NCBI GenBank assembly: GCA_020049775.1
Contig: JAGVLO010000015.1
Coordinates: 1-64,000, forward strand
DNA length: 64,000 bases
Direction: 5' to 3'
Source of the DNA: Alphaproteobacteria bacterium
GTDB taxonomy: Bacteria; Pseudomonadota; Alphaproteobacteria; Rickettsiales; SXRF01
How positions within the stretch are numbered: position 1 is the stretch's first letter; every line of letters starts with the position of its first letter. The position numbers and the translations under genes were made by a program. Below the pieces are notes generated by a model that saw only the letters and a list, made by a program, of their open reading frames with translations, was not told where the DNA came from and made no database searches. This document shows, piece after piece, positions 41,082-63,927 of this stretch.

Positions 41082-41864
41082 CTATTCTTTTTCAAACTCA
41101 GCGGCCATATCGACCAGCTTTTTCCAGTTTGAAGAAGACATCAGCGCTGCATAAATCAGTGGCAGCCAGCCCTTCTTGAAGAACTCAAGAATGGTTGCTT
41201 CCGGCAGTGCATTCAGGCGCTTTTCATCAATTGCCTGGAAACCACCGAGGTGGATTTCGCGGCCATTGAACAGCTTGGCATCCGAACGTGTCGGGGTCAG
41301 CAGGTTTGCCACCTTCAGGTCTTCGCAGAAACGGCGGGTCAGCTGGTGATGGTTGTGGTATGCGGTGCAGAATTCAAGCGCATTGCGCGTAAGTTCAGCC
41401 GGTTGGCCGTCCTTATAGAGCGGCAGGGCGTCCTTGCTACCAGATTCTTTGTATTGCGAAGCACCTTCGTCGATGCACAGCAGGAATTCCTTACGTTCCG
41501 GCATATCCATGAATACGAACGGATATTTACGAACATAAGCGGGCTGATAGGCGCCGTCTTTCCAGCTGCCCTTCTCGTTTACGAAGTAGTTCTGCTTTTC
41601 AAGGCCGACAATAGCGGCAGGCAGAGGGTTTTCACCCTGTGTAAACACGATGGGGTACTGCTTCGCAGCTTCAAAGAACTCAACTGCATTCACCAGAATA
41701 GAGTTGGTTGAGCTGGCAAAGGATAAATCCTGCACAGGAAGAAGGCCGGCCTTGGCATGACGCTTCATGTCCAGTGGCATAGGCTTCTTGAAAAACAGGG
41801 GCAGGCTTGAAGGCGCTGCGGGTTCAGTACCCTGTGTGGATTTAGGTTGGGCAGATTTAGCCAT
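41082..41864 (-). CDS. SapC family protein
   Basis: This 260-residue protein carries the SapC domain (pfam07277): LPVQDLSFASSTNSILVNAV near residues 42-61, FPIVF-like YPIVFT near 70-75, YVRKYPFVFMDMPERKE near 109-125, LCIDEGA near 128-134 and HLGGFQAIDEKRLNAL near 206-221. The name comes from a gene linked to a Campylobacter S-layer locus; no enzymatic role is established. No signal peptide. It starts 28 bases behind the giant exoprotein, with AAGGA 10 bases before the ATG, so it is the third gene of the two-partner secretion operon. Confidence 0.88.
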   Translation of the reverse strand: MAKSAQPKSTQGTEPAAPSSLPLFFKKPMPLDMKRHAKAGLLPVQDLSFASSTNSILVNAVEFFEAAKQYPIVFTQGENPLPAAIVGLEKQNYFVNEKGSWKDGAYQPAYVRKYPFVFMDMPERKEFLLCIDEGASQYKESGSKDALPLYKDGQPAELTRNALEFCTAYHNHHQLTRRFCEDLKVANLLTPTRSDAKLFNGREIHLGGFQAIDEKRLNALPEATILEFFKKGWLPLIYAALMSSSNWKKLVDMAAEFEKE

Positions 41865-41892: not shown

Positions 41893-44800
41893 TTACTGGT
41901 TAGCGTTACAAGCGCCGCCAAAGACACCCTTAGCAAGGAAGTCATTGCCGCAATCCTGATAACCATCGCCACCCGCAGATGGGCTGAGGTTTGCCAGGTC
42001 ACCGGCGTTACCGCCTGCGGCCGGAGCCAGGTTGTTGAGTGCGCCCGGGCCACCAGTTGGCGGGTTGCCGCCTTGGCCAAGCATGCTCAGGTTAACATCA
42101 TTGATGTTAAAGTTCATCGGTGCGCGGCCCGATCCATTGAGGAGGAAGCCAGCGTAGGAGAACAGCGGGCCTTCAAACAGACCACTGCGATCCTGCAGGA
42201 ACTGGTTCAGCAGATCAATGTTGATACCATCCGGTGAGGTGTACAGAACCAGACCCAACGTGCCGTTATCCGGCAGGTGGCGGGTCTTCAGTTCTGCTGC
42301 GGCCAGCTGTTCATCGGTGAAGGTGTTTGCAACTACACCATCGAACGTCTGGAAGCGAGCGTCAAGGATGCGGCCGAACATCGCGCCGTTGGTCAGGTAG
42401 AAGTAGTAGTTCATACCCGTGAAGCTGCTGCCGTTACCAATGAACTGCATTTCAGTGTTGGTATCGTCAAAGCCGGTGCGACCGAGGAATACGCCGGTGA
42501 AGCCACCAGTGAAGGTAGTGTCGCCAACGAGAACGGTGGAACCGTTGTAAGCCCACAGATGCGTCCAGTTGTCGGTCAGTGCAACATTGCTGATTACTGT
42601 ATCAGTAGCGTTGTTCAGCCTTACACCAACCAGGTAGTCGAGGATTTCGCCACCAGTGATGGTGGTACCCTGTGTGTTGGTCATCAGCACACCAATATTG
42701 GAGCCTATTCCTACACCCGTGATAACGTTGGAAGCAAGCTGAGTATTATTGCTATTGGAAATGTTCACACCCCAGTAGTTACCGAACAGGTAGTTGTTGC
42801 TTACAACATTGTCGTTGCTGCCGTTGGACAAGCGTATGCCGTTACCGTTGAAGTACAACTCGTTATCGTTAATGGTAGCCTGGCTGCCATTGAGGCTGAT
42901 GCCTGCGCCAAAACCAGTGACATAGTTGTTTTCAATCAGGTTGACGCCAGTGACGTTAATGAGCGAGATACCGTTGTCAGCAACGAATGGGAGGCCATAT
43001 ACGGAGTTTCCGGATACCAGTAAGTCGCTATTGGTAACAAGGATACCATCGCCGTTGGAAGCATAAACTTCATTGTTAGTGATGGAGACATCGTCACTCT
43101 CATCAACAAAGATGCCAGCCACACTCGAACCGAAGGTGTAGTTGTCGTCGATGAGCGCACCATCGCTGCCGTCAACTGCCGCGATGTTGGTATTGAAGAA
43201 GCCAACTTCGTTGCCGCTGATGGTAGCATCCTGAACGTTAGAGATGATAATGCCATAACCTAAGCCATCTGCATAAACATCGTTGTTTGTTACGGTGATT
43301 ACGCCGTCGCTATCGCTGATGTCGATACCGTTGCCGAATACGTCATAGATGTTGTTGTTATCTACGAGTATGTCGGTGCTGTCGCTTACGACAACGCCAT
43401 GGAATGGTTCATCGATTTCGTTTTCGGTGATGTCAACATTGCTGCTGCCTTCAACCAGAATGCTGAATTCATAGGTCTGGATGTAGTTGTTGCCAATGTT
43501 AGCATCGGTCACGTTATCGAGGCCGATACCGGTGTTGCTGTAGTCACCATAGATGTTGTTGTTGTTGATCTCCAGGTCTTCGCTGTCGTTGACCAGGATA
43601 CCGTTACTCTGAGCATAGAGCTGGTTGCCGTCCACGTCGATGTTGCGGCTGTTTGAAACAATCACACCATCTTCAACTTCTTCAACATAGTTGTTGGTGA
43701 CTTCGATATCGAACGAGGTCGGGTCAAGCGGGCTATCGCCTTCGCCGCCGAACGGTTCGCCGGATACTTCGATACCCGTGTAGAAGTCGTCGATGTAGTT
43801 GTCATCAACAATACCGCTGTTGCTATCGGTAACGCGGATGCCCGTGTTGCCTTCATCACCGTAAATATCGTTGTTGGTGATTTCGAAGGTGGTTACTTCA
43901 TCAAGGCTGATACCTACATCATAGATGTCAGAGAGGTTGTTGCTGTCGATGATGATGTTGCTTACTGGATCAACATCGATACCGATATTTACATTTTCAA
44001 TAGTGTTATCAGATACCGAGATATTTTCGGTGGTGAAGCCTTCATCCATCACGCCATAGACACCTACGCCGATGTTAAAGCTGTAGATTTCGTTGCCATC
44101 AATGGTGGAGTTGGTGCTGTCGTTCAGCAGAACGCCGTAGCTGCCCCAATCCCATGAATTGATGTAGTTGTTGTCAACGTTGATATTATCGCTGTCGGAA
44201 ACATTGACGCCAACATCAGAGATATCAACAATGTAATTGTTGGTAACGGTGACATATTCGCTGTCTGAAACAATCACGCCGGTGTCAATATCTGATACCG
44301 AGTTATCGTCAACATCAATATTGTTGCTGCCGGTTATATTTATGCCGGTGGTGCCAATATTGATCGAGTTGTCATAGACAGTGATTTGGCTGCTACCGGT
44401 TACATTGATGCCAGTGGCGAAGTCGTCAATGATGTTCTGGTCAACCATACCGTCTTCGCTGCTATCAATATTGATAGCGGTGTCAACTTCGTCGATTGTG
44501 TTCGCGGTTACATTGAACTCTTCGGTGTTTGTAACATTGATACCGGTGGTAGCATCTTCAATATTGTTGTTGCTGATGCCAACCAGAGATGAGGAACCAA
44601 CGTTGATGCCGGTGGTAACTTCATCAATTTCGTTGCCTTCGATGCCGATATCTTCGCCATTTGTTACGTTGATGCCGGTGGTAGCGTTCGTAATGACGTT
44701 TGTGGCGATATACAACATGTCGGAATTGTCAACATTGATACCGGTCACCGAATTGGTGATGTCATTGCTTTCTACAACGCCATCTACACTATCGTTGATA

Positions 44801-47800
44801 TTCACACCGTTTGTGACTTCATCAATTCCGTTATCAACGATATCGAAATCTTCGCTATTCTGTACGTTGATACCGTTGGTGCTGTCATTGATAGTGTTGT
44901 TATTGACAGTGAACAATTCGCCGTCGGTCACGAGAACGCCATTATCAACCGCCACGTCAATGTTATTACCGTTGATGTGGAAATCGTAAGAATTGGTTAC
45001 GAACACACCGGTGAGGCTGTTGTTGATAGTGTTGCCGTTTACATTGAACAGTTCGCTATCTGAAACGCTGACGCCAGTGTCAACATCTTCAATCGTGTTG
45101 TTGTTGACCTGGAAGTCATAACCAGTGTCAACATTAACGCCGGTTACAGCGTCGGTGATATCGTTGCTGTTAACATCGAATGACCCACTGTCGGTTACGT
45201 TGATACCGGTGGTGGTCTCTTCAACAATATTATCGTTCACGTAGAAGTCTTCACTGTTGTTCACGTTGATACCGGTTACGGCATCGATAACAGTGTTGTT
45301 GATTACGTTGAACGTATCGCTTTCGCCGATATTGATGCCGGTGGTGGCATTATCAACGCTGTTTCCATCCACGCCAAATTCAAAGCTGTTGAAAATGTTG
45401 ATGCCGTTTTCTTCAGCGGTATCCACAATGTTGGTGTTTACACCAAAGAAGCTGGAGTTGAGGATGTTGATACCGTTTGTAGAAAGCGTGATATCGTTGT
45501 TGGTGATATCGAAATCCGTGCTGGACACAACATTGATACCAGTGGTGGTGCTGGTGATGGTGTTGTTATCGACCCCGAAGAGTTCACCATCAACAATATT
45601 GATGCCAGTGTTGGCTTCTTCAATGTCGTTGTTGTCTATATCGAAGTCATAGCTGTCGGTAACATTGATACCGGTGGTGGTGTTATCAATGGTATTGCCG
45701 CTAGCATCAAACAGTTCGCTTTCATCAACATTGATGCCAGTGGCGGCGTTCTCAATGGTGTTGGAATTAACTAGGAAGTTGTAGCCGTCAAAGACATTGA
45801 TGGCCGTGCCGGTGATGTTGGTCACTTCGTTACTATTTACGGTAAAGTCTTCACTTTCGGTAACGTTGATGCCGGTGTCGGCGACGTCAACATCGTTGCT
45901 ACCAACGCTGAAATCTTGCGAGAAGTAAACGTTGATACCGGTGCCGGTATTGGTAACGATGTTGTTGTCAGCATCGAAGAATGAGCTTTCCTCTACGTTG
46001 ATACCGGTCGTTGCTTCATCAACTTCGTTGTTGTTCACGGTGAAGTCGGTGGACAGGTAAACGTTGATACCAGTGGTGCTGTTGGTCACGCTGTTGTAGT
46101 CAACGTTGAAAGTAGCACTTTCCTGAACGTTGATACCAGTGTCAAAACCGTCAACCGTGTTACCGTTGCCAAGGCTGCCGATGGTAGCGTTGGAGGATTG
46201 GTACATGTAGATACCGTTGCTTGCGCCACCTGCGTCAGCGGTGATGCTGTTGCCGGTTACAGTGATGCCAACCACGTCATCGATATAGATACCATCCGAG
46301 GTAATGTCGGTCAGGGTGTTGTTCGATACGATGTTGTTGTCGCTGTTGGTGACATAGATACCGGTGGTGCTGTTATCGATCAGGTTGCCATCGACAAGGT
46401 TGAGGTCGCTGGTGTTGACGAGGCTGATACCTGTGGTGTTGTTGTACAGGAAGTTGCCCGTAACATCAGCCTGGCTGTCATCAAGATGGATACCGGTAGC
46501 AAAATCATTCACCGTATTGGTGTTGATAGTGTTGCCGATGCCGAACACGCCATCCAGCAGGATACCGGTGCCGGTGCCTAAGGTGGCAGCGGTGATATCG
46601 TTGCCGCTGACCACGAGATCGCTGTCAACTACATGTACACCTGCGAAGTCGATTTCAGTCAGTGTGTTGTCAGAAATCGTAGCGTAGTCGCTGAGTTCCA
46701 CATACACGCCGGTGTAGCTGTTATCGATGATGTTGTTGGTAACAAACACGTTATCGCTGTTGCTGTAGAGGCTCACACCCGTGGTGAAGTCAGTGATGGT
46801 GTTGTTATCAATGGTGGAGTTAGTGGTTTCGGACAGGTACACGCCGGTTGCGCCTGAATCAGGTGCAGCAGAGGTGATGCTGTTGCCAGCAACATAGATA
46901 TCATCGCTGAAGGTCGAGCTTACACCTGTCAGGTAGATACTGGTCAGGGTGTTATCTTCCACATTTACATCTGAGCTGTTGGAGATAACCACGCCATAGT
47001 CAGCATCATCGATGATGTTGTTGGAAGCGGTGATTGCAGTGCTGTTGCCAACGTTGATGCCTGTGGTGGTGTCGGTTACGTTGTTTGCATCAACCAGAAT
47101 ATCATCGCTGTAAGTTACAGTGATGCCGGTGGTCGCAGTCTCAACGTCGTTCTCATCAACGGTGCCTTCTTCACTGTAGCTGATGTCGATGCCGTTGGTC
47201 GTGTTGGTTACGCCGTTGCCGGTTACGTTGAAAAATTCAGCTTCGGTGACATAGATACCATAAGTGGCAACATCAACCGTGTTGTCGGTGATATCGAAGT
47301 CAGAAGCGTAACCAACGCCGATGCCAGCATAGCTGTTGGTGACGGTGTTGTTGTTGATGCTGAAGTTCTCGCTGAAAATAGCGCCGGCGCCAACATATGT
47401 ATCATCAATAGTGTTGCCGGTGATTTCGAAATCATCAGAGTCAGCAGCGCCGATACCAATCATGGTGTCGGTCACTTCGTTATTCTGGACGATAAAGTCA
47501 TAGCTGCTTACGGCGATGATGCCGCCGGTGCCATGGGTATCAACCGTGTTGCTGTCGATATTGAAGTTGTTGCTGTTGTCGAAGGCAATACCGAACTGGC
47601 CGTTGTCATGAACGTTGTTAAAGCCAACATAAACATCGTTAGATGAAGAAATCGTCATACCGTTGGTAAAGCCGGTCACTTCGTTGCCATCGCCATCTGC
47701 GCCGATTTCAGCGTCGCTGAAGGAACTCAGGGCGATACCGTCAGAACCAAGGTTGCCGGTCACGCTGTTGTTAAGGATGGTGGCGGTGGTGCCGGAAACC

Positions 47801-50800
47801 AGAGAAATGCCGTCATTGGTGATTCCGCTGATGGTGTTGTCGGTAATTTCAAGTTCATTGCTGTTGTTGCTTATCACGCCGTTTGTAGCGGTGGTGATGG
47901 TGTTGTTGGTGACAAACACGCCGGTGGTGTCGTTGATGCTGACACCGCTACCGCTGACAGTAGTCATGGTGTTGTTGTCAATGGTTGCATTGTTGCTGCC
48001 GTTGTGCAGTTCAACGCCATTTCCAACATTGGTCAGGATGTTGTTGTTGATATCAACATTGGTAGCGCCGTCGCCGATAATGCCGGGACCCGCGATATTG
48101 CTGATGGTGTTTTCAGTAACAGTTACTGCGTCGCTGTCATCAACGCTTACGCCAACGTTGCCGCCGGTGATGTCGTTTTCATCAACGAGGACGTTGTTGC
48201 TGCCGTTTTCAACACTGATACCGACCGTGTTGTTGGTAACGGTGTTGTCGAAAATGGTGCCGCTGCTTGCGTCGAAGGTAATACCATAGTGGAAGCCGTC
48301 CACATCATTGTTCTCAACCAGGCTGCTGATAGCCGAGTTACCAACAAAGATACCAACGCCTGAACCTGCGAGGCCAGAGGTTACGGTGTTGTCGTTGATG
48401 ACGGTGTTATCACCGAAGTTAACGTAGATACCGTTGCCGCCGGTAACAGAGGTGCTAACCGTGTTATCGGTTACTGTGTTGCCGGTGCTGTTTTCGATGA
48501 AGATACCATTGACGCTTGCGCCTGCCACCGAGTTATCGGTGATCTGGTTGTCATCGCTGCCGTTAGTCACCAGGATACCGCTTTCAACAGTAGTAATGGT
48601 GTTGTTGGTAACATCTGCGCTGCTTGCATCGAGCGAGATACCGTTTTCGAAGATGCTTACATCGTTGTTGTCAACGAGGTTGCCGCTGCCGAATACGCCA
48701 ACGAGCGAGATACCGGTGCCGGTGCCAACGCCGCTGATGGTGTTGTTCTGGATCAGCAGGTCGCTGTCAACAATCTGGATACCATAACCGTTTACGCCGG
48801 AGATGTTGTTGTTAGTGATGCTCAGGTCATCGCTGAGGTACGCATACACGCCAGTGCCGCCGCCAGTAATGGTGTTCTGGTCAACGAGGCTGTCATCGCT
48901 TTCGGTGAGGCTGACGCCGGTGTTGTTGTTGGTCATGGTGTTGAGGACGATGGAACCAACGGTATTATCGAGTGCGATACCGATGTTGAAGTTGCTCACG
49001 GTGTTGGTGCCGCTGGCAAAGCCATTGCCCACGGTGGTGGTGCCGGTGCCGTCAACAACCAGTATGCCGGTGCCGGTGTTGCCCAGTGCGCCGCTTACGT
49101 TGTTTGCGGTGAAGGCGTTGTTTTCGCCGCCGGAGAGTACGATACCGTCATTCAGGATACCGGTGAGCGTGTTCTTCTTAACATGCATGTTGTCGGTGTT
49201 GGTGACAACGATACCATCGTAGAAGTCGCTGACAGTGTTTACGCCGAGCAGTGTGCCGTCGCCAATCTGGTTAACGCCGAGGCCATCGGTGATGATGATA
49301 CCGGTGCCGGTGCTGCTGGCTGCAGCATCAATGCTGTTGCCGAGAATGGTCACGCTGTCGCTGTTGGTAACGATGATGCCGTCGCCGGTCATGTCGGTCA
49401 GGGTGTTGCGGTAAACGCTGGTCACACTGAGGGTAAGGTCTTGCAGGGCGATACCATCCATGAATTCGCTGATGATGTTGCCGCCGAGGAGCGTGCCGTC
49501 ACCTACGTTGTTCACACCGGTGGTGCCGATGTACTTGATGGCCGTGCCGTTATTCACGCCAACGAGACCGTCGATTTCGTTACCGACGATGGTTACGCTG
49601 TCGCCACCGTTGACTACGATGCCGTCGCCTTCAAGATCGGTGAAGGTGTTGCTGGAGATGGTGGTGCTGTTAGCGTTGTTCAGCACGAGGCCCGAGCCGG
49701 TGCCGCCAATGATGGTGTTGTTGGAAACGGTAGCGGATGCGCCGTTCTGCAGCACGATGCCGTTGGTGTTGTTGGTCAGGGTGTTGCCATCCACCAGAAT
49801 ACCGGTGCTGCCATCAACAAGGATGCCGTTTTCGAAGTCGGAAACATCGTTATTGGTAACATCAGCGCCGTTGCTGCCGTTGATGATGGAGATGCCGTTA
49901 CCCACGCCTGCTACGCCTGCAGTCACCACGTTGTTGTCGATGGTGCCGTTGGTGCTGCCATCATAGACGATGCCGTCGGTCACGCCGGTGATGTTGCTGT
50001 TGAGTACGGAGTTGTTGTTGCCGCCGAGTACTTCGATACCGGTGACGCCGCCAACGATGATTGCGCCGTCAATCACCACGTTGGAACTCGGGTTAACGAG
50101 AATGCCGGTGGTGTTGTTGGTCAGGGTGTTGTTGCCATAGTAGGTGCCATTGCTGCCGCTGTTGTGGATACCAATATCGTAATCAGCAACAATGTTGTCG
50201 GAGATATTGTTATTCACGGTGCCGCTTTGCAGCAGGATACCCTTGCCGGCATTTGCAACGCCGGTCAGGTCGTTGTTGGTAATGGTGGTGTTGTTAACGC
50301 CAACCGCATTGATACCATTGGTTGCGCCGGTAACGGTGTTTGCATCAATGGTGTTGAAGTGGCTGGTTACGTTGATTGCAGTAGTGCCGCCGTCAATTTC
50401 GTTGTTGCTGACGGTTGCGCCGCCGGTGCCGATGAGGCTGATGCCGGTCGTGTTATTGGTCAGAACGTTGTTATTGATTAAAGCTGCAACTGCGTTGCGG
50501 ATACCGGTGAGGAAGCCGCTGATAGTGTTCTGACCAGCCGGAGTGCCGTCACCGATGTTAATGCCTGTGCCGCTTACAACATCAATACCGATGCCTGCGC
50601 CGGTGCCGGTAACGGTGTTATCAACTACGGAAGCGTTGTTAGCGCTGGTCAGCGAGATACCGGTAGCTGCACCAGTGATGGTGTTACCGCTCAGCGTGTT
50701 GCTTGGTGCGTTATTCACGTTGATGCCGGTGGTACCGCCGGTGATGATGTTACCGTCGATAACGTTATTGACGCTGGAACCTGTAACACTAATGCCGGTG

Positions 50801-53800
50801 GTGTTAGCCGTAGTGCCGCCTAGCGTGTTGTTGCTGACGGTGTTGGTGCTGGAAGAGCCGATGATGCCGACACCAACAGAGTAGTTGTCGATGGTGTTGC
50901 TATCGACCAATGCGCCAATGGTTGCGCCAGTCAAGGTTACGGCTGTGCTGCCACCAGTGAAAATGTTGTTGGAAACGGTAGCGTCGCTGCCGCCGCTGAT
51001 CTGAACGCCGGTGCTGGAACCGCCGATGGTGTTGCCATCGATAAGCGCGTTGTTGCTGGCGTTCACGTTAATGCTGGTGGTGCCGCCGGTGAAGGTGCTG
51101 TTGGTAACAGACGAATCATGGCTGTTGCTAACGAAAGACACGCCTGCGGTGGTGTTGTTGGTCAGGGTGCTGCTGCTGATATCAAGCTGGCTGGTGGTAG
51201 CGCGGATACCGGTAGCCGTGTTGACAACGGTTACGCCGGATACATCACCCGAGGCGGTGTTGTAGCCGATACCTACAACGTTGCTGAAGCCGTTGCCGCT
51301 AACCTGCAGGTTGGAAACGTCTGCGTTGCTGCCGGTTACGTTGATAACGGTGTTGTTGTTAGCCTGCGCGTTGATGATGGTGGTCGCGCCTTGGCCGGTG
51401 AGAGTGAAGTTGGATTCGTTGAGTGCAACGAGCTGGTTGAAGGTACCCGCACGCAGCGCGAGGGTTGCTTCATCATGTGTGCCTACAGCGTTAATGGCGG
51501 TCTGGATGCTTCCGCCGGTGCTTTGGAACAGGTTGACGATATGGCCGGAGAGCGAGTTTGCGCTGCCGCTGAATACGTCAAGGTTATTGATTTGCAGTGT
51601 ACCTGCAGCGGCGTCTGCACTGATGGCGCTACCATCGGTTACAGTTACGTCATCAGCATTGATGGTGGTGTCGAAACCGGTGATGGAAGAGCCGTCATCG
51701 AGGATAACGTCATCGCCTGCAGTGACGGTGGTGGTGCCTGCGGCATCACCGATTGCGCTGCCGTCATCGAGAAGTACGTCGCCACCGGCGGTAACGCTGG
51801 CGCTGGTGCTGCCGGTAATGCTGGAAATATTGTCATTATCAAGATCAACATCACCCAGTGTAGCGGTTATGCTTACAACCGCGCCGTCAATGGAGCTGCC
51901 ATCGATGATCATGGTGCCGCTGCTTGCGGTGATGGAAATGTCGCCACCAGTGAACATATCAGAATCGTGCATGTCGAAGTCGGCAGCGGAAACAACGATA
52001 TTGCCGGTGGTCGAATCAACGGTTGCGTTTCCTGAACCTTGGTCATCAAGATTGACGCGGTCAGTAGCGGTCAGGGTAATCAGGCCGGTGCCGGTAGTGA
52101 CCCTGCCATCGTTACCGTTAGCAATGATGTTGATGTCCTCAGAGGAGAGCGTGATAGAACCGTTGGCGCTGGATACAGTACGGCTGTTGATATCGATATT
52201 ATCACCCGCTTGCATGGTGATACCGCCTTGGCCGGCGGTGCCGGAGGTGCCGGTGACGTTGGCGTTAACAATGATGTCATCAAGCGCGATGAGGGTCAGG
52301 TTACCTGCGCCGCTCCATGACAGGTTGTTGCTGATAGTGATATCGCCATCATGGCTAGGGTTAAAGCCAGCGGTAGCGGTGTCGATGGTGACGTTAGCTG
52401 CGTTAAGCTGTCCCTGAAGGGTGGTTACGTTGATGTGGTTTGGGCCGCCTGCTGCGTTGCTGATGGTCCAGTTACCCGGATCGAGCAGCAATTCGCCAAG
52501 GCCGTCAGTGCCGTAGGCATTGGTGAAGCCTGCATAGGTGAGTTCATTAGCGGAGGAAACTTCTGCGAAGCCGCCCACGCCGTCATTGTTGCTGACGTTG
52601 ATGGTGCCTTCGAATACGGTGGAGTTGTCGCTCCATACCACTACGTCACCGGCCAGACCGCTCTGGGTGCTGGCGTCGATAACGCTTGCGGAATCAATAG
52701 TTACGTTAGCAGCGCGCGCCATGGCGCCCTGACCTTTATGGTCGCCGCCGATGCGTACTTTGCCGCCACCTGCGTTACCGCTGGCGTCAACAGTTGCGGA
52801 AGCGAGTGCAATATCACCCTTGGTTTCAACGGTGATCGAGCCGCCCTTCGCGCCCGCGCCCTTGCCGGATGCATCGATGGTGCCAGCAACGGTAATGTCG
52901 CCTTCGCCGCCATTAAGAACGATAACGCCGCCGTTAACGGTTGCAGAAGAAGCATCAATGATGCCGGTGGTGTTGATCGCCTTGTCAACTACGTCTTTAG
53001 CTGCATTGGCGGTCATGAAAATCTGGCCACCCTTGGCGGTGATGGAGCCGGTGTTTTCGATAGCGGCATTCATGTCGTTGCCGTTTTCGTCTTTGGCTTT
53101 CTGTGAAGCTTGCTGGGTGATCTGGAAGCTGTAGAGGTTGTCACCATACATATCTACGGTGAAGGCTTCACCCGCGCCGATGGCAATGGTGCCGCCGTTT
53201 GCAACGATAACGCCGTCGTTCTTCACGCCAGCGCCTACGAGGGCAACGAGACCGCCTTCTTTAGCGGTGATAGTGCCTTTGTTGATGATAGCGGCAGACT
53301 TGTTGGCGCTTGCAGCGTCAAAGTTGTAGTTGCCAGCGTTGAAATTAGCGTCGCTGATATCAGCGGTAGAAAGAACCAGGCTACCTGCGTTGATAGAGCC
53401 AGAATTGCCAACCAGCACCCCGTTCGGGTTGACAACCATAAGTGTAGCATCAGCAGTGAGGCGGCCGTGAATGTTGCTCGTCGGACCGTTAACGCGAACC
53501 AGCATGACATCCCCTGCACTCTGGTTAATGCGCCACAGTTCATCTGCCGCGATATCGATATAGTTAGTGAGCAGCGCGGTTTTTTGCGCGTGCTGATCGG
53601 TTACAACCGTCTTCGGGTCCAGCTGGTAGGACGTTGCGGAACCGGAGGTCACAATAAGATTATTGGGATCCGGATTTGCAAACGCGTCGCGCGTGCTGCC
53701 AAAGCCAGCCATAAACATGGCCATGCCGGCTACAACGTATGCGCGAGAATTGAGTGCGGAGCTGGTATAGAGGGAAGAACGGTTCTGTTTCATAATATGT

Positions 53801-53922
53801 CTCTTACGTTTGGGATGAATTTCGTAAACTGCTGTATTGTATGAATTGTTTGTTAGTTGCTCACCTGTTGCTCCAAAAAGATTATTTTTGAAGGAACTCT
53901 TGGTTAACTGCTTCTTAATCAT
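41893..53922 (-). CDS. Giant two-partner-secretion exoprotein (TpsA), about 4009 residues
   Basis: The protein begins with a signal peptide inside residues 1-83; the hydrophobic core and cleavage site TRDAFA sit near 66-83. The TPS haemagglutination-type domain follows, with VVNPNGVLVGNSG near residues 163-175. Residues from about 840 to 3830 are right-handed beta-helix repeats of about 22 residues (consensus TTGINVxxSxxFxVxxNxI), of the NosD/PbH1 kind. The C-terminal tail (about 3958-4009) is Gly/Pro/Ala-rich, holds PAAG at 3967-3970 and ends with Cys3991 and Cys4005, the only cysteines I see. The start at 53922 has AAGGG; the ATG at 53793 is an alternative that leaves a 39-residue signal. 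It should be secreted by TpsB and stay at the surface. Confidence 0.93.
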   Translation of the reverse strand: MIKKQLTKSSFKNNLFGATGEQLTNNSYNTAVYEIHPKRKRHIMKQNRSSLYTSSALNSRAYVVAGMAMFMAGFGSTRDAFANPDPNNLIVTSGSATSYQLDPKTVVTDQHAQKTALLTNYIDIAADELWRINQSAGDVMLVRVNGPTSNIHGRLTADATLMVVNPNGVLVGNSGSINAGSLVLSTADISDANFNAGNYNFDAASANKSAAIINKGTITAKEGGLVALVGAGVKNDGVIVANGGTIAIGAGEAFTVDMYGDNLYSFQITQQASQKAKDENGNDMNAAIENTGSITAKGGQIFMTANAAKDVVDKAINTTGIIDASSATVNGGVIVLNGGEGDITVAGTIDASGKGAGAKGGSITVETKGDIALASATVDASGNAGGGKVRIGGDHKGQGAMARAANVTIDSASVIDASTQSGLAGDVVVWSDNSTVFEGTINVSNNDGVGGFAEVSSANELTYAGFTNAYGTDGLGELLLDPGNWTISNAAGGPNHINVTTLQGQLNAANVTIDTATAGFNPSHDGDITISNNLSWSGAGNLTLIALDDIIVNANVTGTSGTAGQGGITMQAGDNIDINSRTVSSANGSITLSSEDINIIANGNDGRVTTGTGLITLTATDRVNLDDQGSGNATVDSTTGNIVVSAADFDMHDSDMFTGGDISITASSGTMIIDGSSIDGAVVSITATLGDVDLDNDNISSITGSTSASVTAGGDVLLDDGSAIGDAAGTTTVTAGDDVILDDGSSITGFDTTINADDVTVTDGSAISADAAAGTLQINNLDVFSGSANSLSGHIVNLFQSTGGSIQTAINAVGTHDEATLALRAGTFNQLVALNESNFTLTGQGATTIINAQANNNTVINVTGSNADVSNLQVSGNGFSNVVGIGYNTASGDVSGVTVVNTATGIRATTSQLDISSSTLTNNTTAGVSFVSNSHDSSVTNSTFTGGTTSINVNASNNALIDGNTIGGSSTGVQISGGSDATVSNNIFTGGSTAVTLTGATIGALVDSNTIDNYSVGVGIIGSSSTNTVSNNTLGGTTANTTGISVTGSSVNNVIDGNIITGGTTGINVNNAPSNTLSGNTITGAATGISLTSANNASVVDNTVTGTGAGIGIDVVSGTGINIGDGTPAGQNTISGFLTGIRNAVAALINNNVLTNNTTGISLIGTGGATVSNNEIDGGTTAINVTSHFNTIDANTVTGATNGINAVGVNNTTITNNDLTGVANAGKGILLQSGTVNNNISDNIVADYDIGIHNSGSNGTYYGNNTLTNNTTGILVNPSSNVVIDGAIIVGGVTGIEVLGGNNNSVLNSNITGVTDGIVYDGSTNGTIDNNVVTAGVAGVGNGISIINGSNGADVTNNDVSDFENGILVDGSTGILVDGNTLTNNTNGIVLQNGASATVSNNTIIGGTGSGLVLNNANSTTISSNTFTDLEGDGIVVNGGDSVTIVGNEIDGLVGVNNGTAIKYIGTTGVNNVGDGTLLGGNIISEFMDGIALQDLTLSVTSVYRNTLTDMTGDGIIVTNSDSVTILGNSIDAAASSTGTGIIITDGLGVNQIGDGTLLGVNTVSDFYDGIVVTNTDNMHVKKNTLTGILNDGIVLSGGENNAFTANNVSGALGNTGTGILVVDGTGTTTVGNGFASGTNTVSNFNIGIALDNTVGSIVLNTMTNNNTGVSLTESDDSLVDQNTITGGGTGVYAYLSDDLSITNNNISGVNGYGIQIVDSDLLIQNNTISGVGTGTGISLVGVFGSGNLVDNNDVSIFENGISLDASSADVTNNTITTVESGILVTNGSDDNQITDNSVAGASVNGIFIENSTGNTVTDNTVSTSVTGGNGIYVNFGDNTVINDNTVTSGLAGSGVGIFVGNSAISSLVENNDVDGFHYGITFDASSGTIFDNTVTNNTVGISVENGSNNVLVDENDITGGNVGVSVDDSDAVTVTENTISNIAGPGIIGDGATNVDINNNILTNVGNGVELHNGSNNATIDNNTMTTVSGSGVSINDTTGVFVTNNTITTATNGVISNNSNELEITDNTISGITNDGISLVSGTTATILNNSVTGNLGSDGIALSSFSDAEIGADGDGNEVTGFTNGMTISSSNDVYVGFNNVHDNGQFGIAFDNSNNFNIDSNTVDTHGTGGIIAVSSYDFIVQNNEVTDTMIGIGAADSDDFEITGNTIDDTYVGAGAIFSENFSINNNTVTNSYAGIGVGYASDFDITDNTVDVATYGIYVTEAEFFNVTGNGVTNTTNGIDISYSEEGTVDENDVETATTGITVTYSDDILVDANNVTDTTTGINVGNSTAITASNNIIDDADYGVVISNSSDVNVEDNTLTSIYLTGVSSTFSDDIYVAGNSITSAAPDSGATGVYLSETTNSTIDNNTITDFTTGVSLYSNSDNVFVTNNIIDNSYTGVYVELSDYATISDNTLTEIDFAGVHVVDSDLVVSGNDITAATLGTGTGILLDGVFGIGNTINTNTVNDFATGIHLDDSQADVTGNFLYNNTTGISLVNTSDLNLVDGNLIDNSTTGIYVTNSDNNIVSNNTLTDITSDGIYIDDVVGITVTGNSITADAGGASNGIYMYQSSNATIGSLGNGNTVDGFDTGINVQESATFNVDYNSVTNSTTGINVYLSTDFTVNNNEVDEATTGINVEESSFFDADNNIVTNTGTGINVYFSQDFSVGSNDVDVADTGINVTESEDFTVNSNEVTNITGTAINVFDGYNFLVNSNTIENAATGINVDESELFDASGNTIDNTTTGINVTDSYDFDIDNNDIEEANTGINIVDGELFGVDNNTITSTTTGINVVSSTDFDITNNDITLSTNGINILNSSFFGVNTNIVDTAEENGINIFNSFEFGVDGNSVDNATTGINIGESDTFNVINNTVIDAVTGINVNNSEDFYVNDNIVEETTTGINVTDSGSFDVNSNDITDAVTGVNVDTGYDFQVNNNTIEDVDTGVSVSDSELFNVNGNTINNSLTGVFVTNSYDFHINGNNIDVAVDNGVLVTDGELFTVNNNTINDSTNGINVQNSEDFDIVDNGIDEVTNGVNINDSVDGVVESNDITNSVTGINVDNSDMLYIATNVITNATTGINVTNGEDIGIEGNEIDEVTTGINVGSSSLVGISNNNIEDATTGINVTNTEEFNVTANTIDEVDTAINIDSSEDGMVDQNIIDDFATGINVTGSSQITVYDNSINIGTTGINITGSNNIDVDDNSVSDIDTGVIVSDSEYVTVTNNYIVDISDVGVNVSDSDNINVDNNYINSWDWGSYGVLLNDSTNSTIDGNEIYSFNIGVGVYGVMDEGFTTENISVSDNTIENVNIGIDVDPVSNIIIDSNNLSDIYDVGISLDEVTTFEITNNDIYGDEGNTGIRVTDSNSGIVDDNYIDDFYTGIEVSGEPFGGEGDSPLDPTSFDIEVTNNYVEEVEDGVIVSNSRNIDVDGNQLYAQSNGILVNDSEDLEINNNNIYGDYSNTGIGLDNVTDANIGNNYIQTYEFSILVEGSSNVDITENEIDEPFHGVVVSDSTDILVDNNNIYDVFGNGIDISDSDGVITVTNNDVYADGLGYGIIISNVQDATISGNEVGFFNTNIAAVDGSDGALIDDNYTFGSSVAGIFVDESDDVSITNNEVYASNGDGILVTNSDLLVSGNSVYGLPFVADNGISLINVTGVNLIENNYVTGFGAGISLNGSQATINDNELYFNGNGIRLSNGSNDNVVSNNYLFGNYWGVNISNSNNTQLASNVITGVGIGSNIGVLMTNTQGTTITGGEILDYLVGVRLNNATDTVISNVALTDNWTHLWAYNGSTVLVGDTTFTGGFTGVFLGRTGFDDTNTEMQFIGNGSSFTGMNYYFYLTNGAMFGRILDARFQTFDGVVANTFTDEQLAAAELKTRHLPDNGTLGLVLYTSPDGINIDLLNQFLQDRSGLFEGPLFSYAGFLLNGSGRAPMNFNINDVNLSMLGQGGNPPTGGPGALNNLAPAAGGNAGDLANLSPSAGGDGYQDCGNDFLAKGVFGGACNANQ
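42013..42024 (-). other. Candidate LapG-type cleavage site P-A-A-G in the TpsA tail
   Basis: These bases encode Pro-Ala-Ala-Gly (residues 3967-3970), 20 residues before the first cysteine of the C-terminal pair. LapG-family proteases cleave between the two alanines of T/A/P-A-A-G/V sequences, and CdrA-type adhesins carry the site just before a C-terminal cysteine hook. A second similar stretch (SPSAGG, 3980-3985) has lost the second Ala. The assignment is by motif and position only. Confidence 0.5.
42430..51440 (-). repeat. Long array of about 66-bp coding repeats (beta-helix rungs)
   Basis: Some 9 kb of tpsA encode roughly 130 rungs of about 22 residues. The most regular stretch runs from about residue 2700 to 3150, where TGIN recurs at near-constant spacing. 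Asn ladders (NNN, NxN) mark the turns. The protein repeats are degenerate at DNA level, so the array is old rather than freshly expanded. Confidence 0.85.
53904..53918. promoter_or_regulatory. CtrA-like box near the tpsA start
   Basis: TTAA (53904-53907), 7 bases, TTAA (53915-53918), a full match to the alphaproteobacterial CtrA consensus TTAA-N7-TTAA. It lies in codons 2-7 if tpsA starts at 53922, or about 110 bases upstream if it starts at 53793. Chance matches are common in AT-rich stretches. Confidence 0.35.
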
Positions 53923-54012: not shown

Positions 54013-55698
54013 TTAGTAACGGTATGATAAGTCAAAGAAGAAGCGCGGCGCGCCACCGTCTTGACCATATGCGGCAACTTTTCTTGTGGTTGGTAACGCA
54101 ATTTCAAAGCCACCGGAGAGAGGTTGTGATGCGTCAAAGCGAACACCAAGGCCGGTAGAGGCAAGCGCGGCAGTGGAACCTGGGCCAACTACAGTGCGTG
54201 ACCACACCTTACCCACGTCATAGAAACCATAGAGCTGGTAGCTTTCAAAGAAGCCAACATCTTCCATGCCACTAAATTGGAGTTCAGCACGTGCGGCCAC
54301 ACCGTCATCGCCGATAATTTCAGAAGTGTCATAAGCAGAACCGAAGTTCGGGCCGCCAACACCGAACTGTTCGGCGGAGAGCAACACATTGCCCGATTTC
54401 TGGCCCTGAGCAGCAACAAAGAGGTTGAATGGCCCTTCGATTGGCTGCAAGCGGCTTACATAAGCAGTGATTTTGCTAAAGTCCATGTCACCACGTGCGC
54501 GTGACTGCAACGCCGGACGGCCATAGCCATCCCACTTGAAACCGCGGGAAACTTCAGTTTCGATTTTGTTTACGGCAGCGAACTGGTCAACAAAGTCGTA
54601 GGCGGCACCTGTGCGCAGTACACGCAGTCTATCGCGGAACAGAGCAGTGTCGAGAGCGTCGGTCGAGGTGTTGCGCCAGTCAAACTTCACATGGCCAAAC
54701 AGGTTGGTTTCACGCGAGCGGATAAAGGGGTGGGAAACTGCTGCCGATAAGGTGGTATCCTTACCGACGATATCAAAATTCTTGAGGGTGTACCCTGGGT
54801 TGGTGCGTGTGCGGCCAGCAGAAAGCTGAAGCTTGGTACCTTCATCATCCAACTGGAATTCCTGAACAATCTGGCCATATTTCAATTCGTTTGTATTGTC
54901 AGCCGCAAACAGGCGGACCTGTGTGCGGTCATACATGCCCATTAGATTATTGAATGCGGTGGAGAAGCTGAACTCAACCGGACCGAGATAGCGTGTGCCA
55001 CGGTTATCCATGGTAGCGGTAACATCAACTGGCTTTTCTTCAATCTGAATCACGATGTCAGACGCACCGGAAACGCCCTGAGCCGGGCGGATTACAGCGT
55101 GTGCCTTTACACCTGGCAGATCTTCCATCAGGAGCAGGTAGCGCTCAAGCGTGGCGGAATCCAGCGGCTTGGCGCCGCGGATTTTCTCTGCGTACTGGGC
55201 AAGGCGGCTGGTTTCATCGCTCAGGCCTTCGATGGTCACTTGATTAACAAAACCTTCCACGATGCGGATTTTCAGCACGCCGTTACCAATGCGCTGTGGC
55301 GGGATTACGGCGCGGGACAGGATGTAGCCCGCGTTGCGGTACTTTGCGGTGATCTTGCCAGCGGCCTTGTTCAGGGTGCCGAGGTTAATCTTGGTGTTGA
55401 GGTATTCTTGGAACTCAGCGGTCAGTTCTTCGCTGGTGAAGCTGGTATTGCCCTCAAATGAGACGCCTTTGATGGTGAAGGTGGCACCTTCGGAGAGCTT
55501 CTTGTCCTTACCTTCGTCATCCGGCACGGTGATGATGGGCATACCACCTACTTCCGGACGGGCTTCCTGAATGCGCGTGCGCTCTGCCTGACGGCCTGTC
55601 TGGGCCGGGGCTGGGTTAGGAACCTGCGCCAGCACATCGCCGGAAACAAAGAGAAATGCGAGGGAAAGCGATAAGGGAAGTGTAAGTTGGCGTTTCAT
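54013..55698 (-). CDS. TpsB outer-membrane transporter (ShlB/FhaC/HecB family)
   Basis: This 561-residue protein has a signal peptide (1-24, DVLA|Q), a Pro-rich linker helix region (about 25-70), and a POTRA domain (about 72-148: FTIKGVSFEGNTSF, EYLNTKINLGTLN, YRNAGYILSRAVIPPQ). A second POTRA-like segment follows, then a 16-stranded barrel whose C-terminal strand ends FFFDLSYRY. FhaC-type motifs such as GQKSGNVLLSAEQFGVGG near residues 428-445 are visible. It should export the neighbouring TpsA across the outer membrane. The gap to the tpsA ATG is 90 bases. Confidence 0.94.
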   Translation of the reverse strand: MKRQLTLPLSLSLAFLFVSGDVLAQVPNPAPAQTGRQAERTRIQEARPEVGGMPIITVPDDEGKDKKLSEGATFTIKGVSFEGNTSFTSEELTAEFQEYLNTKINLGTLNKAAGKITAKYRNAGYILSRAVIPPQRIGNGVLKIRIVEGFVNQVTIEGLSDETSRLAQYAEKIRGAKPLDSATLERYLLLMEDLPGVKAHAVIRPAQGVSGASDIVIQIEEKPVDVTATMDNRGTRYLGPVEFSFSTAFNNLMGMYDRTQVRLFAADNTNELKYGQIVQEFQLDDEGTKLQLSAGRTRTNPGYTLKNFDIVGKDTTLSAAVSHPFIRSRETNLFGHVKFDWRNTSTDALDTALFRDRLRVLRTGAAYDFVDQFAAVNKIETEVSRGFKWDGYGRPALQSRARGDMDFSKITAYVSRLQPIEGPFNLFVAAQGQKSGNVLLSAEQFGVGGPNFGSAYDTSEIIGDDGVAARAELQFSGMEDVGFFESYQLYGFYDVGKVWSRTVVGPGSTAALASTGLGVRFDASQPLSGGFEIALPTTRKVAAYGQDGGAPRFFFDLSYRY

Positions 55699-60336: not shown

Positions 60337-60358
60337 GCCTAATATAGGGGCTTTTGCT
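60335..60358. terminator. Weak bidirectional terminator between convergent genes
   Basis: The arms AAGCC (60335-60339) and GGCTT (60349-60353) flank an A/T-rich loop and are followed by TTGCTTTTT. The stem is only five base pairs and overlaps the stops of both genes, so the call is weak. Confidence 0.4.
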
Positions 60359-62510
60359 TTTTCCTGAGTTCTGAAGTGCCAACCATCATTTGCGCCAGCC
60401 ATTCACGGCCGCTGTGGTTTTCCACATAATTAATCAGCGCGATCACAGTGCGGCGGTCAAAGGCCCTATCCGCATTATCCAGAAGCTGCTTGCTGGCATC
60501 ATCCACGGGAATCGCATCGCGCCAGGCGCGCGGACTTATCATGCCCACGAAGGCATTGGCCACGGCAATGATGCGTGCGGAGATAAGGATTGCTTCGTGC
60601 TTCAGTCCCAGCGGGCCTGCGCCGTCCCAGCGTTCTTGCCACTGGCGTAGCGTGTCCTCCACCGGTCCGTCGAAATAAATGCCATGCAACATATCAGCGG
60701 AAGCATTCATCGAGTCGCGGATAATTCCTTTTTCTTCTTCAGTGAGTTTATTTGTCTTGGTTAGCAGCTCTGTCGGAATTACGATTTTACCGATATTCAT
60801 AAGGTTTGCCGCGGTTTGCGTGGTTTCCACCATCACCTGATCCAGCGCCACGCTGATGGCTACTTCATATGCTACCTTGGAGACCAGCTTGGAGTGATTG
60901 GCAGAGAACGGATCGCGCTTATCAACCATGCTCACCAGCATTTCTACTAGCTGCCGGTTGGTTTCCATGCGCTGTTCCCGTTCGCGCACTACTTCTGTGA
61001 TGTCCTGATCTACCACCAGCACACCCGGGATTTTTTCAGGTAGCGATGGCACAGGTATATAGCGAAGCGGCACAAAAGCACTGCGCACTACGCGCTCGCC
61101 CTCGCCCGTTCCCGTGCGGTACATGTCGTAACCGACGGAGTTGTCCTCCAGCGCTTGTATGCACTGGCCGCCGATTTGCACGGAGCGGTCCCTGCCCACC
61201 ACATCTTCCAGTTGCCTGCTTCCGAGTGTGCCAGGCGTCATGTTGGCATCGACTGCGGCTTGCAGGTTGGCAAAGTGGATAGTGTTTTTAGTATCCACAA
61301 TCATGATGGATTCCGGTTGGTAATCTGTCACGAGTTGCAACAGCACTTCCTGCGCTTTTGCTTGCGCGGCAAGCCTGCGGAAATAACGCGACATAAAAAT
61401 GGCGCGCTTGGAATAAGCGTACCACCATATGGCAATGATGATCATGATGATGAAACCAATCATCAGGCAGAAGAACGTAATCATGCTGACGCGCCGGTCG
61501 TTGCCTGCTGAATAGGCCTCGGGCCGGTCGATCTTAACTACCATTATCCACGGGGTATTGATGACACTGCGCGAGGTCCCGAGTACCGGCTTGTCGCGGT
61601 AATCTTTCTGGTTGAACATAAAGTCACCAATATTTTGGACAAGCTTTGCCTCGGTATATTTATTGATGTCGAAAGCATTCTGTTTGCTAAGTGCGCTGGT
61701 GCCGTCGCTTAGTGGCGATAGATACTCAAGCTGGTTATTCGTTTTGCGCACCAGAATGGTTTCCAGTGTTTTTTCTGTTGTACCCGGGTGTTTCAGCAGG
61801 CTGAAAAAACTATCATCCAGTGCGGCGATGGCGACAATGCGCCCAATCTGGGATTCCGGTTTGCGGTCGCCCTGAATAGAATATACCGGTACGACAAAAC
61901 CGACATAAGGTTTACCGTCACTGCCCTTGAACATATCGATGAGGCGTTGCTGGCCTGCAGGCGTCTGTGCGGCTTGCGCCACCATGGAGTCGCGTGTTTC
62001 ATTATTCACAATGGTGGAGACCACCATCTCGTTTTTACTATTTAGGATGATGACGCCGCTGGTGCTTTCCGGAGTGACGTTGGCCGGTATGGCGGGCAGG
62101 TTATTGCGGACGATGAATCCTGCGCGCTCCGCCGAAAATATCAGGAGGTTGCGCAGGTAGCTGCGGGGGGCGGGTTCACTTTCCTCGACGAAACCGTTTT
62201 CACCTGTTGGTGCGGCGGACATCATCTGCAATTCGGTCATGTATATTTGTAGCGAAGGATTATCCGCCAGCAGGTGCAACTCTTTATATTTATCTGCTAC
62301 CCATTTATTGATATCGCTGGCACGACTTTCGGCAATCAGGGTCAGTTTTTCCTGCCACGCTTCCTGGTCACGCTTGAAGTCGATAGCAGTATAGCGGTTA
62401 ACAAGCCAGATGCCGGTAATGATAAGCGCAGTCACCAAAAGCGCAATGCCATAGAGCTTGGGTGCGAAGTTTGGATTATCGTGCGGGCTATGGATAGTGG
62501 ATTCAGACAT
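60339..62510 (-). CDS. Membrane sensor with degenerate HD-GYP domain
   Basis: This 723-residue protein has two membrane helices (about 17-37 and 348-370) with a large dCache-like periplasmic domain between, a cytosolic PAS-like domain (about 390-520), and a C-terminal HD-GYP fold (about 540-700). HD-GYP enzymes break down cyclic di-GMP, but here the key residues are changed: HD-x-GK reads MN-I-GK (Met571-Asn572), HHE reads QWQE, GYP reads AGP (631-633), and the later VAD reads VAN. It should be catalytically dead and could act as a ligand-responsive switch. ATG 62510 is chosen (GGAG upstream). The gene precedes the hydrolase convergently and follows the LapG-like gene on the same strand. Confidence 0.85.
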   Translation of the reverse strand: MSESTIHSPHDNPNFAPKLYGIALLVTALIITGIWLVNRYTAIDFKRDQEAWQEKLTLIAESRASDINKWVADKYKELHLLADNPSLQIYMTELQMMSAAPTGENGFVEESEPAPRSYLRNLLIFSAERAGFIVRNNLPAIPANVTPESTSGVIILNSKNEMVVSTIVNNETRDSMVAQAAQTPAGQQRLIDMFKGSDGKPYVGFVVPVYSIQGDRKPESQIGRIVAIAALDDSFFSLLKHPGTTEKTLETILVRKTNNQLEYLSPLSDGTSALSKQNAFDINKYTEAKLVQNIGDFMFNQKDYRDKPVLGTSRSVINTPWIMVVKIDRPEAYSAGNDRRVSMITFFCLMIGFIIMIIIAIWWYAYSKRAIFMSRYFRRLAAQAKAQEVLLQLVTDYQPESIMIVDTKNTIHFANLQAAVDANMTPGTLGSRQLEDVVGRDRSVQIGGQCIQALEDNSVGYDMYRTGTGEGERVVRSAFVPLRYIPVPSLPEKIPGVLVVDQDITEVVREREQRMETNRQLVEMLVSMVDKRDPFSANHSKLVSKVAYEVAISVALDQVMVETTQTAANLMNIGKIVIPTELLTKTNKLTEEEKGIIRDSMNASADMLHGIYFDGPVEDTLRQWQERWDGAGPLGLKHEAILISARIIAVANAFVGMISPRAWRDAIPVDDASKQLLDNADRAFDRRTVIALINYVENHSGREWLAQMMVGTSELRKKQKPLY

Positions 62511-62626
62511 GTTATTTTTTCTCCGGGGCCGATTCAGTACATGCGAACGCCGCATACAATAACACTATATATATAGAATGGAATACAAAATGACATTTGT
62601 TGTGTGTACCAAGAATGAAGAAAATA

Positions 62627-63292
62627 TTAATTCATTTTGGGGCGGTATGACCACCACGCATCTTCGTTAATGCCATAGACGGGGCGGTAGTGATAAATTT
62701 TCATGGCGGGCGTTACCTGCTTAATCTGGTTATCGAGTATGAAAAGTTCGCCGCCGTCATAGACACCTAGCACGGCGTGGATAATACCGCCGAGGTTCAG
62801 GTCCTGAAGAATGATAATACGCATCTTGTCTGCTGATACACCAAGTGCGCGCAGGGAATAATATTTTGAAATGGCGTAGTCCTCGCAGTCGCCGTTTATT
62901 TCCATAAATTCGTATGGGGTTTCCCAGTAATCTTCCAGACCCCAGTTCATCATATCTTCGATGTAGGGGTGTTCGTTCGACCAGCTGTTGACAATCTTCA
63001 ACTGCTCGCGCAGCGACTTTCCTTCTATGGATTCCAGTAAAGACCGCCAGTCTTTTACAGAGCATGGGTGAAATTTGGTTTTACCGCATTGACTATCGGG
63101 AACGCCTTTTTGCCTGTCATAGCGCAAGCGCATTCCGGTCCATTTGGTGAAGGGCGAGATATTGCCGGAGCGTGTTTCGCCCATGATAAAGTAGGAATTA
63201 TTGTTGGCGGCGGAAGCCTGTCCGGTACCAGCTAGCAGGTATAGCGGCGTGCATGATAACAGTAAAAAAAGTATCGACTGTAAGCTGCGCAT
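62627..63292 (-). CDS. LapG-like periplasmic cysteine protease (DUF920/BTLCP)
   Basis: This 221-residue protein has a signal peptide (1-29, ending ASA). The transglutaminase-like fold has the catalytic triad Cys136 in GDCEDYAISKYYSLRALG, His172 in IIHAVLGVY and Asp187 in ILDNQI. The GDCEDYA segment also matches the calcium-linked acidic site of LapG proteins. LapG releases giant adhesins from cells by cutting xAAG sites in the periplasm or at the surface. An extra N-terminal pair, CGKTKFHPC (69-77), may form a disulfide. It sits 116 bases upstream of the degenerate HD-GYP sensor gene, on the same strand. Confidence 0.88.
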   Translation of the reverse strand: MRSLQSILFLLLSCTPLYLLAGTGQASAANNNSYFIMGETRSGNISPFTKWTGMRLRYDRQKGVPDSQCGKTKFHPCSVKDWRSLLESIEGKSLREQLKIVNSWSNEHPYIEDMMNWGLEDYWETPYEFMEINGDCEDYAISKYYSLRALGVSADKMRIIILQDLNLGGIIHAVLGVYDGGELFILDNQIKQVTPAMKIYHYRPVYGINEDAWWSYRPKMN

Positions 63293-63666: not shown

Positions 63667-63927
63667 ATGTCTGTTGCAAAAAAGAAGCCAGCCAAGAAGA
63701 AGGCAGCTAAAAAGACCGCTACCAAAAAGAAGGTAGTGAAGAAGGTAGCTAAGAAGAAGACCGCTAAAAAGAAGACCGCTAAGAAGAAGACCGCTAAGAA
63801 GAAGGTTGCCAAAAAGAAGGTTGCCAAAAAAGCTAAGCGTCCTGCTAAGCGTTCCAAGCCAAAGGTTGGCATGAGCATGATGGCTCGCGCTGCTGCGGCT
63901 AAGAAAGTAACTCCGATCCGTCTCTAA
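63667..63927 (+). CDS. Lysine-rich histone H1-like protein
   Basis: This 86-residue protein consists mainly of K-K-x-A-K repeats (AKKKTAKKKTAKKK type) over residues 5-60, followed by a short tail with RPAKRSKPKVGMSMMARAAA. It resembles bacterial H1-like or AlgP-type C-terminal DNA-condensing tails. It should bind DNA non-specifically. GGAG at 63655-63658 marks the ribosome site. The codons alternate AAG/AAA in near-identical 15-base units, so the gene can vary in length by slippage or recombination. Confidence 0.85.
   Translation: MSVAKKKPAKKKAAKKTATKKKVVKKVAKKKTAKKKTAKKKTAKKKVAKKKVAKKAKRPAKRSKPKVGMSMMARAAAAKKVTPIRL
63731..63830 (+). repeat. 15-bp coding repeats in the histone-like gene
   Basis: Repeats of the type AAGAAGACCGCTAAG and AAGAAGGTTGCCAAA encode KKTAK and KKVAK. 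They are nearly identical and in frame, a typical substrate for copy-number change. Confidence 0.8.

Follow-up and report, generated by a model that had tools for sequence, protein, structure and literature searches.

The closest described counterpart of the receptor analysed here is DvhD of Desulfovibrio vulgaris Hildenborough (PDB entries 9RBZ, 9RC0 and 9RC2). According to the DvhD study (PMC13090378), which explained the structure only in 2026 and for one genus, DvhD consists of a dCache domain, a PAS domain and a degenerate HD-GYP domain. The same study describes DvhD as a metal-free protein that does not hydrolyze c-di-GMP and binds three c-di-GMP molecules per HD-GYP dimer. 3'3'-cGAMP is also accepted, with a 5-fold lower affinity. 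The stalk geometry of DvhD shifts on c-di-GMP binding, and DvhD controls the BTLCP protease DvhG; the α1' helix forms the surface modelled as touching the protease. The mutations most harmful to DvhD are those at R650, P567 and Y652/R653, and LapG cleavage sites conform to the motif [T/A/P]AAG (PMC13090378).

The logic proposed here for the present receptor, in which an inactive inner-membrane c-di-GMP receptor restrains a periplasmic LapG protease, is that of LapD of Pseudomonas fluorescens. In Pseudomonas aeruginosa, LapG cleaves the two-partner adhesin CdrA close to the C-terminus, and the cysteines of CdrA presumably act as a hook in CdrB (PMC4694147, PMC11898600 and PMC7616799).

The locus described below lies in the window, which is the whole stretch of 64,000 nucleotides that was analysed. 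It probably encodes an inner-membrane c-di-GMP receptor of the DvhD type that functionally replaces LapD and restrains LapG at high c-di-GMP, so that an adhesin stays attached. The kind of receptor and its control logic are already known from DvhD.

Domain organization and catalytic positions of the receptor

The receptor gene (60339..62510, minus strand) encodes 723 residues, with an ATG at 62510 that is preceded by GGAG at 62524–62521 and a stop codon at 60339. The original prediction placed these boundaries correctly; the reading direction is that of the minus strand (62510→60339). The gene was characterized using Pfam, hydropathy, Foldseek and PDB sequence matches. Hydropathy and Pfam define a first transmembrane segment (TM1; residues ∼16–40), a periplasmic dCache domain (∼40–342), a second transmembrane segment (TM2; ∼340–367), a PAS domain (∼385–510) and a degenerate HD-GYP domain (∼515–700). 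In the HD-GYP domain (residues 515–700; 60411..60968, minus strand), residues 524–686 match Pfam HD_5 strongly (E = 1.8e-28) despite the lost residues. The matches of the other two domains are weak, at residues 50–325 for dCache_1 (below the cut-off) and at residues 398–508 for PAS, and the Pfam order is dCache, PAS and HD-GYP. LapD is built differently, from a LapD/MoxY periplasmic domain, a HAMP domain and a GGDEF-EAL module, none of which was found in the receptor by the Pfam scan.

The signature of active phosphodiesterases (HD, third His, HHE, GYP and late Asp) is entirely replaced or deleted in the receptor. In the alignment, HD becomes M571-N572 (60795..60800), the His of the third motif becomes S600 in RDSMNAS (60711..60713) and the late metal-binding Asp becomes N652 (60555..60557), as it does in DvhD (all coordinates on the minus strand). 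The replacement of every metal and catalytic position, including AGP at 631–633, had been predicted and is confirmed by the alignment. Two assignments are refined. The loss at HHE, which had been written as a change to QWQE, is real, and the alignment assigns the His-His pair to W624-Q625 (60636..60641, minus strand), with the following Glu kept. At GYP, now A631-G632-P633 (60612..60620, minus strand), the loss of the tyrosine stands, but the alignment gives a deletion of Tyr rather than a substitution, with a gap in 33 of 37 homologues. The domain shares the HD_5 fold and surrounding motifs with PmGH and other active HD-GYP phosphodiesterases and differs from them in the loss of all metal ligands and of the catalytic signature.

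Alignment with HD-GYP domains also revealed a clade that shares these changes, the check that the original prediction had suggested. The HD pair, the third His and the GYP tyrosine are absent from all 37 window-type homologues; 36 of these carry Asn in place of the late Asp, and the remaining one carries Glu. The replacements recur, with M-N in 33/37, Ser for the third His in 27/37 and the Tyr gap in 33/37; this uniformity shows that they did not arise by chance. The 36 intact HD-GYPs used for comparison all keep HD, the third His, Tyr and the late Asp. The receptor type is present in all 16 genomes of its family, in 33 of the 263 sampled genomes of the order and in 10 of the 398 genomes sampled across the phylum, mostly at full length and with 26–72% identity.

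Purifying selection on the catalytically dead domain is strong, and no other part of the receptor is as constrained. Against a same-genus homologue, dN/dS is 0.069 (NG86) with 83% identity in the HD-GYP domain and 0.19 with 65% identity in the periplasmic domain, ratios that are approximate because dS exceeds 1. The HD-GYP domain is again the best-conserved domain across 26 homologues. These values indicate that selection keeps the HD-GYP domain in its dead form, and a pseudogene was rejected on the basis of dN/dS and family-wide retention. The clade, the strongest conservation in this domain and those DvhD contact residues that are kept support the original proposal that selection maintains the domain for binding or protein contact. 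The gene neighbourhood, which that proposal did not consider, points to the likely role, with a LapG-type protease gene beside the receptor and, elsewhere in the window, an adhesin that looks cleavable by LapG. Single in-frame stops (TAA or TAG) occur inside some homologues, namely in the receptor at L028 and L052 and in the protease loci L029, L033 and L035; they possibly reflect assembly errors or recent decay.

Relationship to DvhD

The top PDB sequence matches of the receptor are the DvhD PAS/HD-GYP structure 9RC0 (2.9e-35) and the DvhD HD-GYP structure 9RBZ (2.1e-32), which also rank best for the HD-GYP domain, followed by the active PmGH (1.4e-11). Similarity of the HD-GYP domain to DvhD was rejected as sole proof of kinship, as many intact HD-GYPs are equally similar (up to 42%). 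Because many intact HD-GYPs are as DvhD-like as the window protein, a tree was built without the catalytic columns (nine columns removed, 178 columns, quick IQ-TREE search, 36 intact HD-GYPs included). In this tree, a branch with an SH-aLRT value of 99 separates the window type, DvhD and the alphaproteobacterial SQ-type L120 from the 36 intact HD-GYPs, with long branches for L131 and L120 that make their placement less certain. The simplest reading of this sequence tree is that the dead HD-GYP would have arisen once.

The periplasmic domain provides a separate comparison. The dCache domain (residues 40–342; 61485..62393, minus strand) was modelled alone with AlphaFold2 from a 5-sequence alignment (pLDDT 78). 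A Foldseek search ranked 9RC2, the periplasmic domain of DvhD, first among 350,542 chains (E = 2.7e-9, target TM 0.72). DvhD was reached by fold comparison only; when the PDB was searched with a sequence profile of the dCache domain, no match had an E value below 0.2. The modelled α1 helix is broken at domain residues 44–45 (H3-43/H46-60), matching the break described for DvhD (PMC13090378). In the model, the helix past the break (residues 85–99, containing PSLQIYMTELQ; 62214..62258, minus strand) is the predicted counterpart of DvhD α1'. Residues 81–92 (LADNPSLQIYMT), the 12-residue segment with the highest conservation in the periplasmic region, overlap this helix. For the full-length protein, AlphaFold2 gave a model of poor quality (pLDDT 61, pTM 0.39) whose confidence is low precisely in the HD-GYP region, and the HD-GYP site was therefore not read from it.

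The c-di-GMP contacts of DvhD at its canonical and bridging sites, taken from PMC13090378, are in part preserved and in part changed. In DvhD numbering, P567, L577, K582, M646, R650 and R653 are identical in the window protein, whereas Y652 is changed to W, Y523 to F, K520 to R, E668 to N and R569 to E, and Y621 is deleted. The segment R661-A-W663-R664 of the window protein (60519..60530, minus strand) is equivalent to DvhD R650-S-Y652-R653. Arg occupies the R661 and R664 positions in all 37 window-type homologues, and the residue between them is Trp, Tyr, His or Phe in all 37. P567, R650 and R653 are likewise conserved in 37/37, L577 in 36/37 and M646 in 33/37; retained residues like R650 are common to HD-GYP domains in general. 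Since the most mutation-sensitive DvhD positions are kept or conservatively changed, their sequences suggest that the window receptor is likely to bind c-di-GMP, although its specificity could differ. The differing contacts (Y621, E668, R569, K520 and Y523) mean that affinity or ligand choice may differ.

The two receptors have lost HD, His-His and the late Asp in common, and each gene adjoins a BTLCP protease gene. They differ in how far the enzyme has been dismantled, as HD is SQ in DvhD and MN in the window protein, and the third His and GYP, both lost from the window protein, are still present in DvhD. Several c-di-GMP contacts are also changed in the window protein. The adhesins differ in type, with a type I secretion system (T1SS) adhesin carrying an N-terminal retention module in the DvhD system and a two-partner adhesin carrying a C-terminal motif and Cys pair in the window.

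The LapG-type protease and the candidate adhesin

Directly upstream of the receptor, ∼116 bp apart and co-directional with it, lies a gene for a 221-residue LapG-type periplasmic cysteine protease (BTLCP, Peptidase_C93; 62627..63292, minus strand), assigned by Pfam, PDB match, alignment and NCBIfam. The protein has an apparent signal peptide, the Cys-His-Asp triad and the calcium-site Asp/Glu. It matches PF06035 (3.1e-15), and its best PDB matches are P. fluorescens LapG (4U65, 1.6e-23) and then Legionella pneumophila LapG; its score of 102 of 320 bits lies under the NCBIfam LapG equivalog cut-off. The triad is intact in all 33 aligned proteases and the calcium-site Asp/Glu in 31 of them. The gene is the sole Peptidase_C93-type gene in the genome. 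A very Lys/Ala-rich 86-residue open reading frame at 63667–63927 of the window (plus strand) resembles histone H1-like proteins.

Receptor and protease are linked across genomes. In 33 of 41 genomes, at most 1.5 kb separates the receptor gene from a protease homologue, which is co-directional in some cases and divergent in others. Among the 263 genomes of the order, 30 contain both genes, three the receptor only, seven the protease only and 223 neither (Fisher p = 2e-29, with the kinship of the genomes ignored). In one nearly complete genome (G027; loci L026 and L074), the receptor is present and a LapG-type protease was not detected; another output or a diverged protease is possible there. 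One clade (SH-aLRT 97), separate from the receptor-paired LapGs, unites five of the six receptor-less LapGs that were examined and a single LapG with an SQ-type partner. At L187, L190 and L191 (genomes G035, G038 and G045), a LapG of this clade lies beside an FhaC gene and a two-partner adhesin, and a window-type receptor was not found in the genome.

The candidate substrate is a giant two-partner-secretion adhesin of 4009 residues (41893..53922, minus strand), in which Pfam identifies right-handed β-helix repeats as 22–25 Beta_helix/NosD stretches. Its partner is an FhaC/ShlB-type outer-membrane transporter with POTRA_2 and ShlB domains (54013..55698, minus strand). The adhesin operon lies ∼5 kb from the receptor/protease pair, with housekeeping genes in between. 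The adhesin tail, NLAPAAGG...DCGNDFLAKGVFGGACNANQ, contains PAAG ∼40 residues before the C-terminus, and this sequence motif, P3967-A-A-G3970 (42013..42024, minus strand), is a candidate LapG cleavage site. The only two Cys residues of the adhesin, C3991 and C4005 at positions −19 and −5 (41908..41952, minus strand), form a candidate cysteine hook. This arrangement resembles the CdrA/CdrB-LapG system of P. aeruginosa in its two-partner adhesin with a C-terminal LapG-like site and a Cys pair, with the motif alone observed here and cleavage predicted. The two systems differ in their adhesin repeats, which are β-helical here, and in their receptor, which is the EAL-type LapD in P. aeruginosa and a DvhD-type HD-GYP protein in the window.

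All five adhesins found beside receptor/protease genes by whole-protein similarity (the window adhesin and those at L072, L089, L090 and L093, with identical layout) carry [PT]AAG within 75 residues of the C-terminus and, beyond it, a terminal Cys pair. The same tail layout occurs in seven more proteins of the family and two of other families (L187 and L188), nine tails that were collected by tail similarity and are not independent of the query. In shuffled sequences, the motif falls within the last 70 residues with a probability of 0.02–0.07 per tail. Two adhesins beside receptor-less LapGs show only part of this layout: that at L190 carries the motif but no Cys pair, and that at L191 has no motif. 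Of the genomes of the order, 19 contain adhesin tails; the protease is present in 18 of these (p = 1e-16) and the receptor in 16 (p = 6e-14). The tail was not found in six of the 16 genomes of the same family. A SapC-family gene follows the adhesin in the window (41082..41864, minus strand); judging by position and size, a counterpart also follows the adhesin at L072, L093 and L188, and the one at L188 looks like SapC.

Proposed control of the protease and alternative readings

Seven GGDEF and three EAL domains are encoded in the genome, along with two more HD_5 domains whose HD motifs are intact, and c-di-GMP is therefore probably made and in use. A LapD in the same genome was rejected as the regulator, as the LapD periplasmic domain was not found in any of the three EAL proteins. 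In the mechanism proposed here, the dead HD-GYP dimer would bind c-di-GMP without cutting it, and the signal would pass from the HD-GYP domain through the PAS domain, the stalk and TM2 to the dCache domain. At high c-di-GMP, the HD-GYP dimer would be loaded and the dCache domain would restrain the LapG-type protease. At low c-di-GMP, the freed protease would cut the adhesin at PAAG, parting it from the cysteine hook and releasing it from the cell surface. Ligand binding, the direction of control, the contact between dCache and protease and the cleavage of the adhesin are the steps that we infer.

Several observations count against this DvhD-type control. The linkage of the two genes is not universal, as seen in the receptor alone in G027 and the seven protease-only genomes; the six family genomes without the adhesin tail and the ∼5 kb gap to the adhesin operon point the same way, as does the low confidence of the full-length model in the HD-GYP region. 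The DvhD contacts that are changed in the window protein, and the general occurrence in HD-GYPs of kept residues like R650, weigh against it too. One could also suppose that the dead domain has lost c-di-GMP binding and acts only as a dimerising stalk and transmission element, with a periplasmic or PAS-borne ligand controlling the protease independently of c-di-GMP. The dCache and PAS domains are both sensor folds, the GYP tyrosine is deleted in 33/37 homologues, the E668 position is variable, and the conserved Arg and Pro residues are also general HD-GYP features. However, nearly all of the 37 homologues retain P567, R650, R653, L577 and, at the Y652 position, His or an aromatic residue, and the HD-GYP domain is the best-conserved part of the receptor; a simple stalk would require neither. 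We regard such a stalk as unlikely.

Remodelling of the site for another dinucleotide, such as 3'3'-cGAMP or pGpG, sensed in place of c-di-GMP, would fit the Asn at the base-specificity residue E668 of DvhD, which is variable in the clade, the loss of Y621 and the weaker acceptance of 3'3'-cGAMP by DvhD itself (PMC13090378). It is nevertheless very improbable in a genome with ordinary GGDEF, EAL and intact HD-GYP genes. The loss of every catalytic residue could also be taken as the mark of a decaying phosphodiesterase gene in a coincidental neighbourhood, but this reading is refuted by purifying selection and family-wide conservation and is scarcely credible: dN/dS is approximately 0.07–0.19 across the domains, the receptor occurs in 16/16 family genomes, unrelated families share the substitutions, and the protease is linked in 33/41 genomes. 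A further proposal, which we hold to be rather unlikely, is that the window-type clade forms a receptor class of its own among dead HD-GYPs, without the GYP Tyr and the base-reading Glu, which would read another nucleotide, or c-di-GMP in a new way, and release a type Vb rather than a T1SS adhesin.

Relative to DvhD-type control as described, three features appear to be new: a mostly alphaproteobacterial clade with all ligands and the GYP tyrosine lost; its spread through an alphaproteobacterial order and scattered occurrence elsewhere in the phylum, part of which is possibly already contained in the distribution data of PMC13090378; and the pairing of a dead HD-GYP receptor with a CdrA-like two-partner (type Vb) adhesin. 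A degenerate HD-GYP beside LapG is not mentioned in the available portions of the LapD/LapG papers PMC3032545, PMC3032553 and PMC4359373 or of the alphaproteobacterial c-di-GMP gene survey PMC9756655. If DvhD-type control holds for the window receptor, a LapD replacement of this kind would be frequent within one alphaproteobacterial order and would also occur in other parts of the phylum, and this control would pair with a different adhesin secretion class and with a further dismantled enzyme. Treating every HD-GYP domain as a phosphodiesterase leads to an overestimate of c-di-GMP breakdown; of the three HD_5 proteins in this genome, one is a non-enzyme judging by its residues. The natural series of intact HD-GYP, SQ-type and MN-type without Tyr offers a test of which residues a c-di-GMP sensor needs after catalysis is lost.

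Both receptor types occur on one alphaproteobacterial contig. Locus L193:1-9892 (G692:C3:213000-222891) carries the 5' part of a window-type receptor gene and a divergent LapG gene, and 7 kb further on, an SQ/DvhD-type receptor gene and a second LapG gene follow T1SS ABC, membrane-fusion and TolC-like genes.
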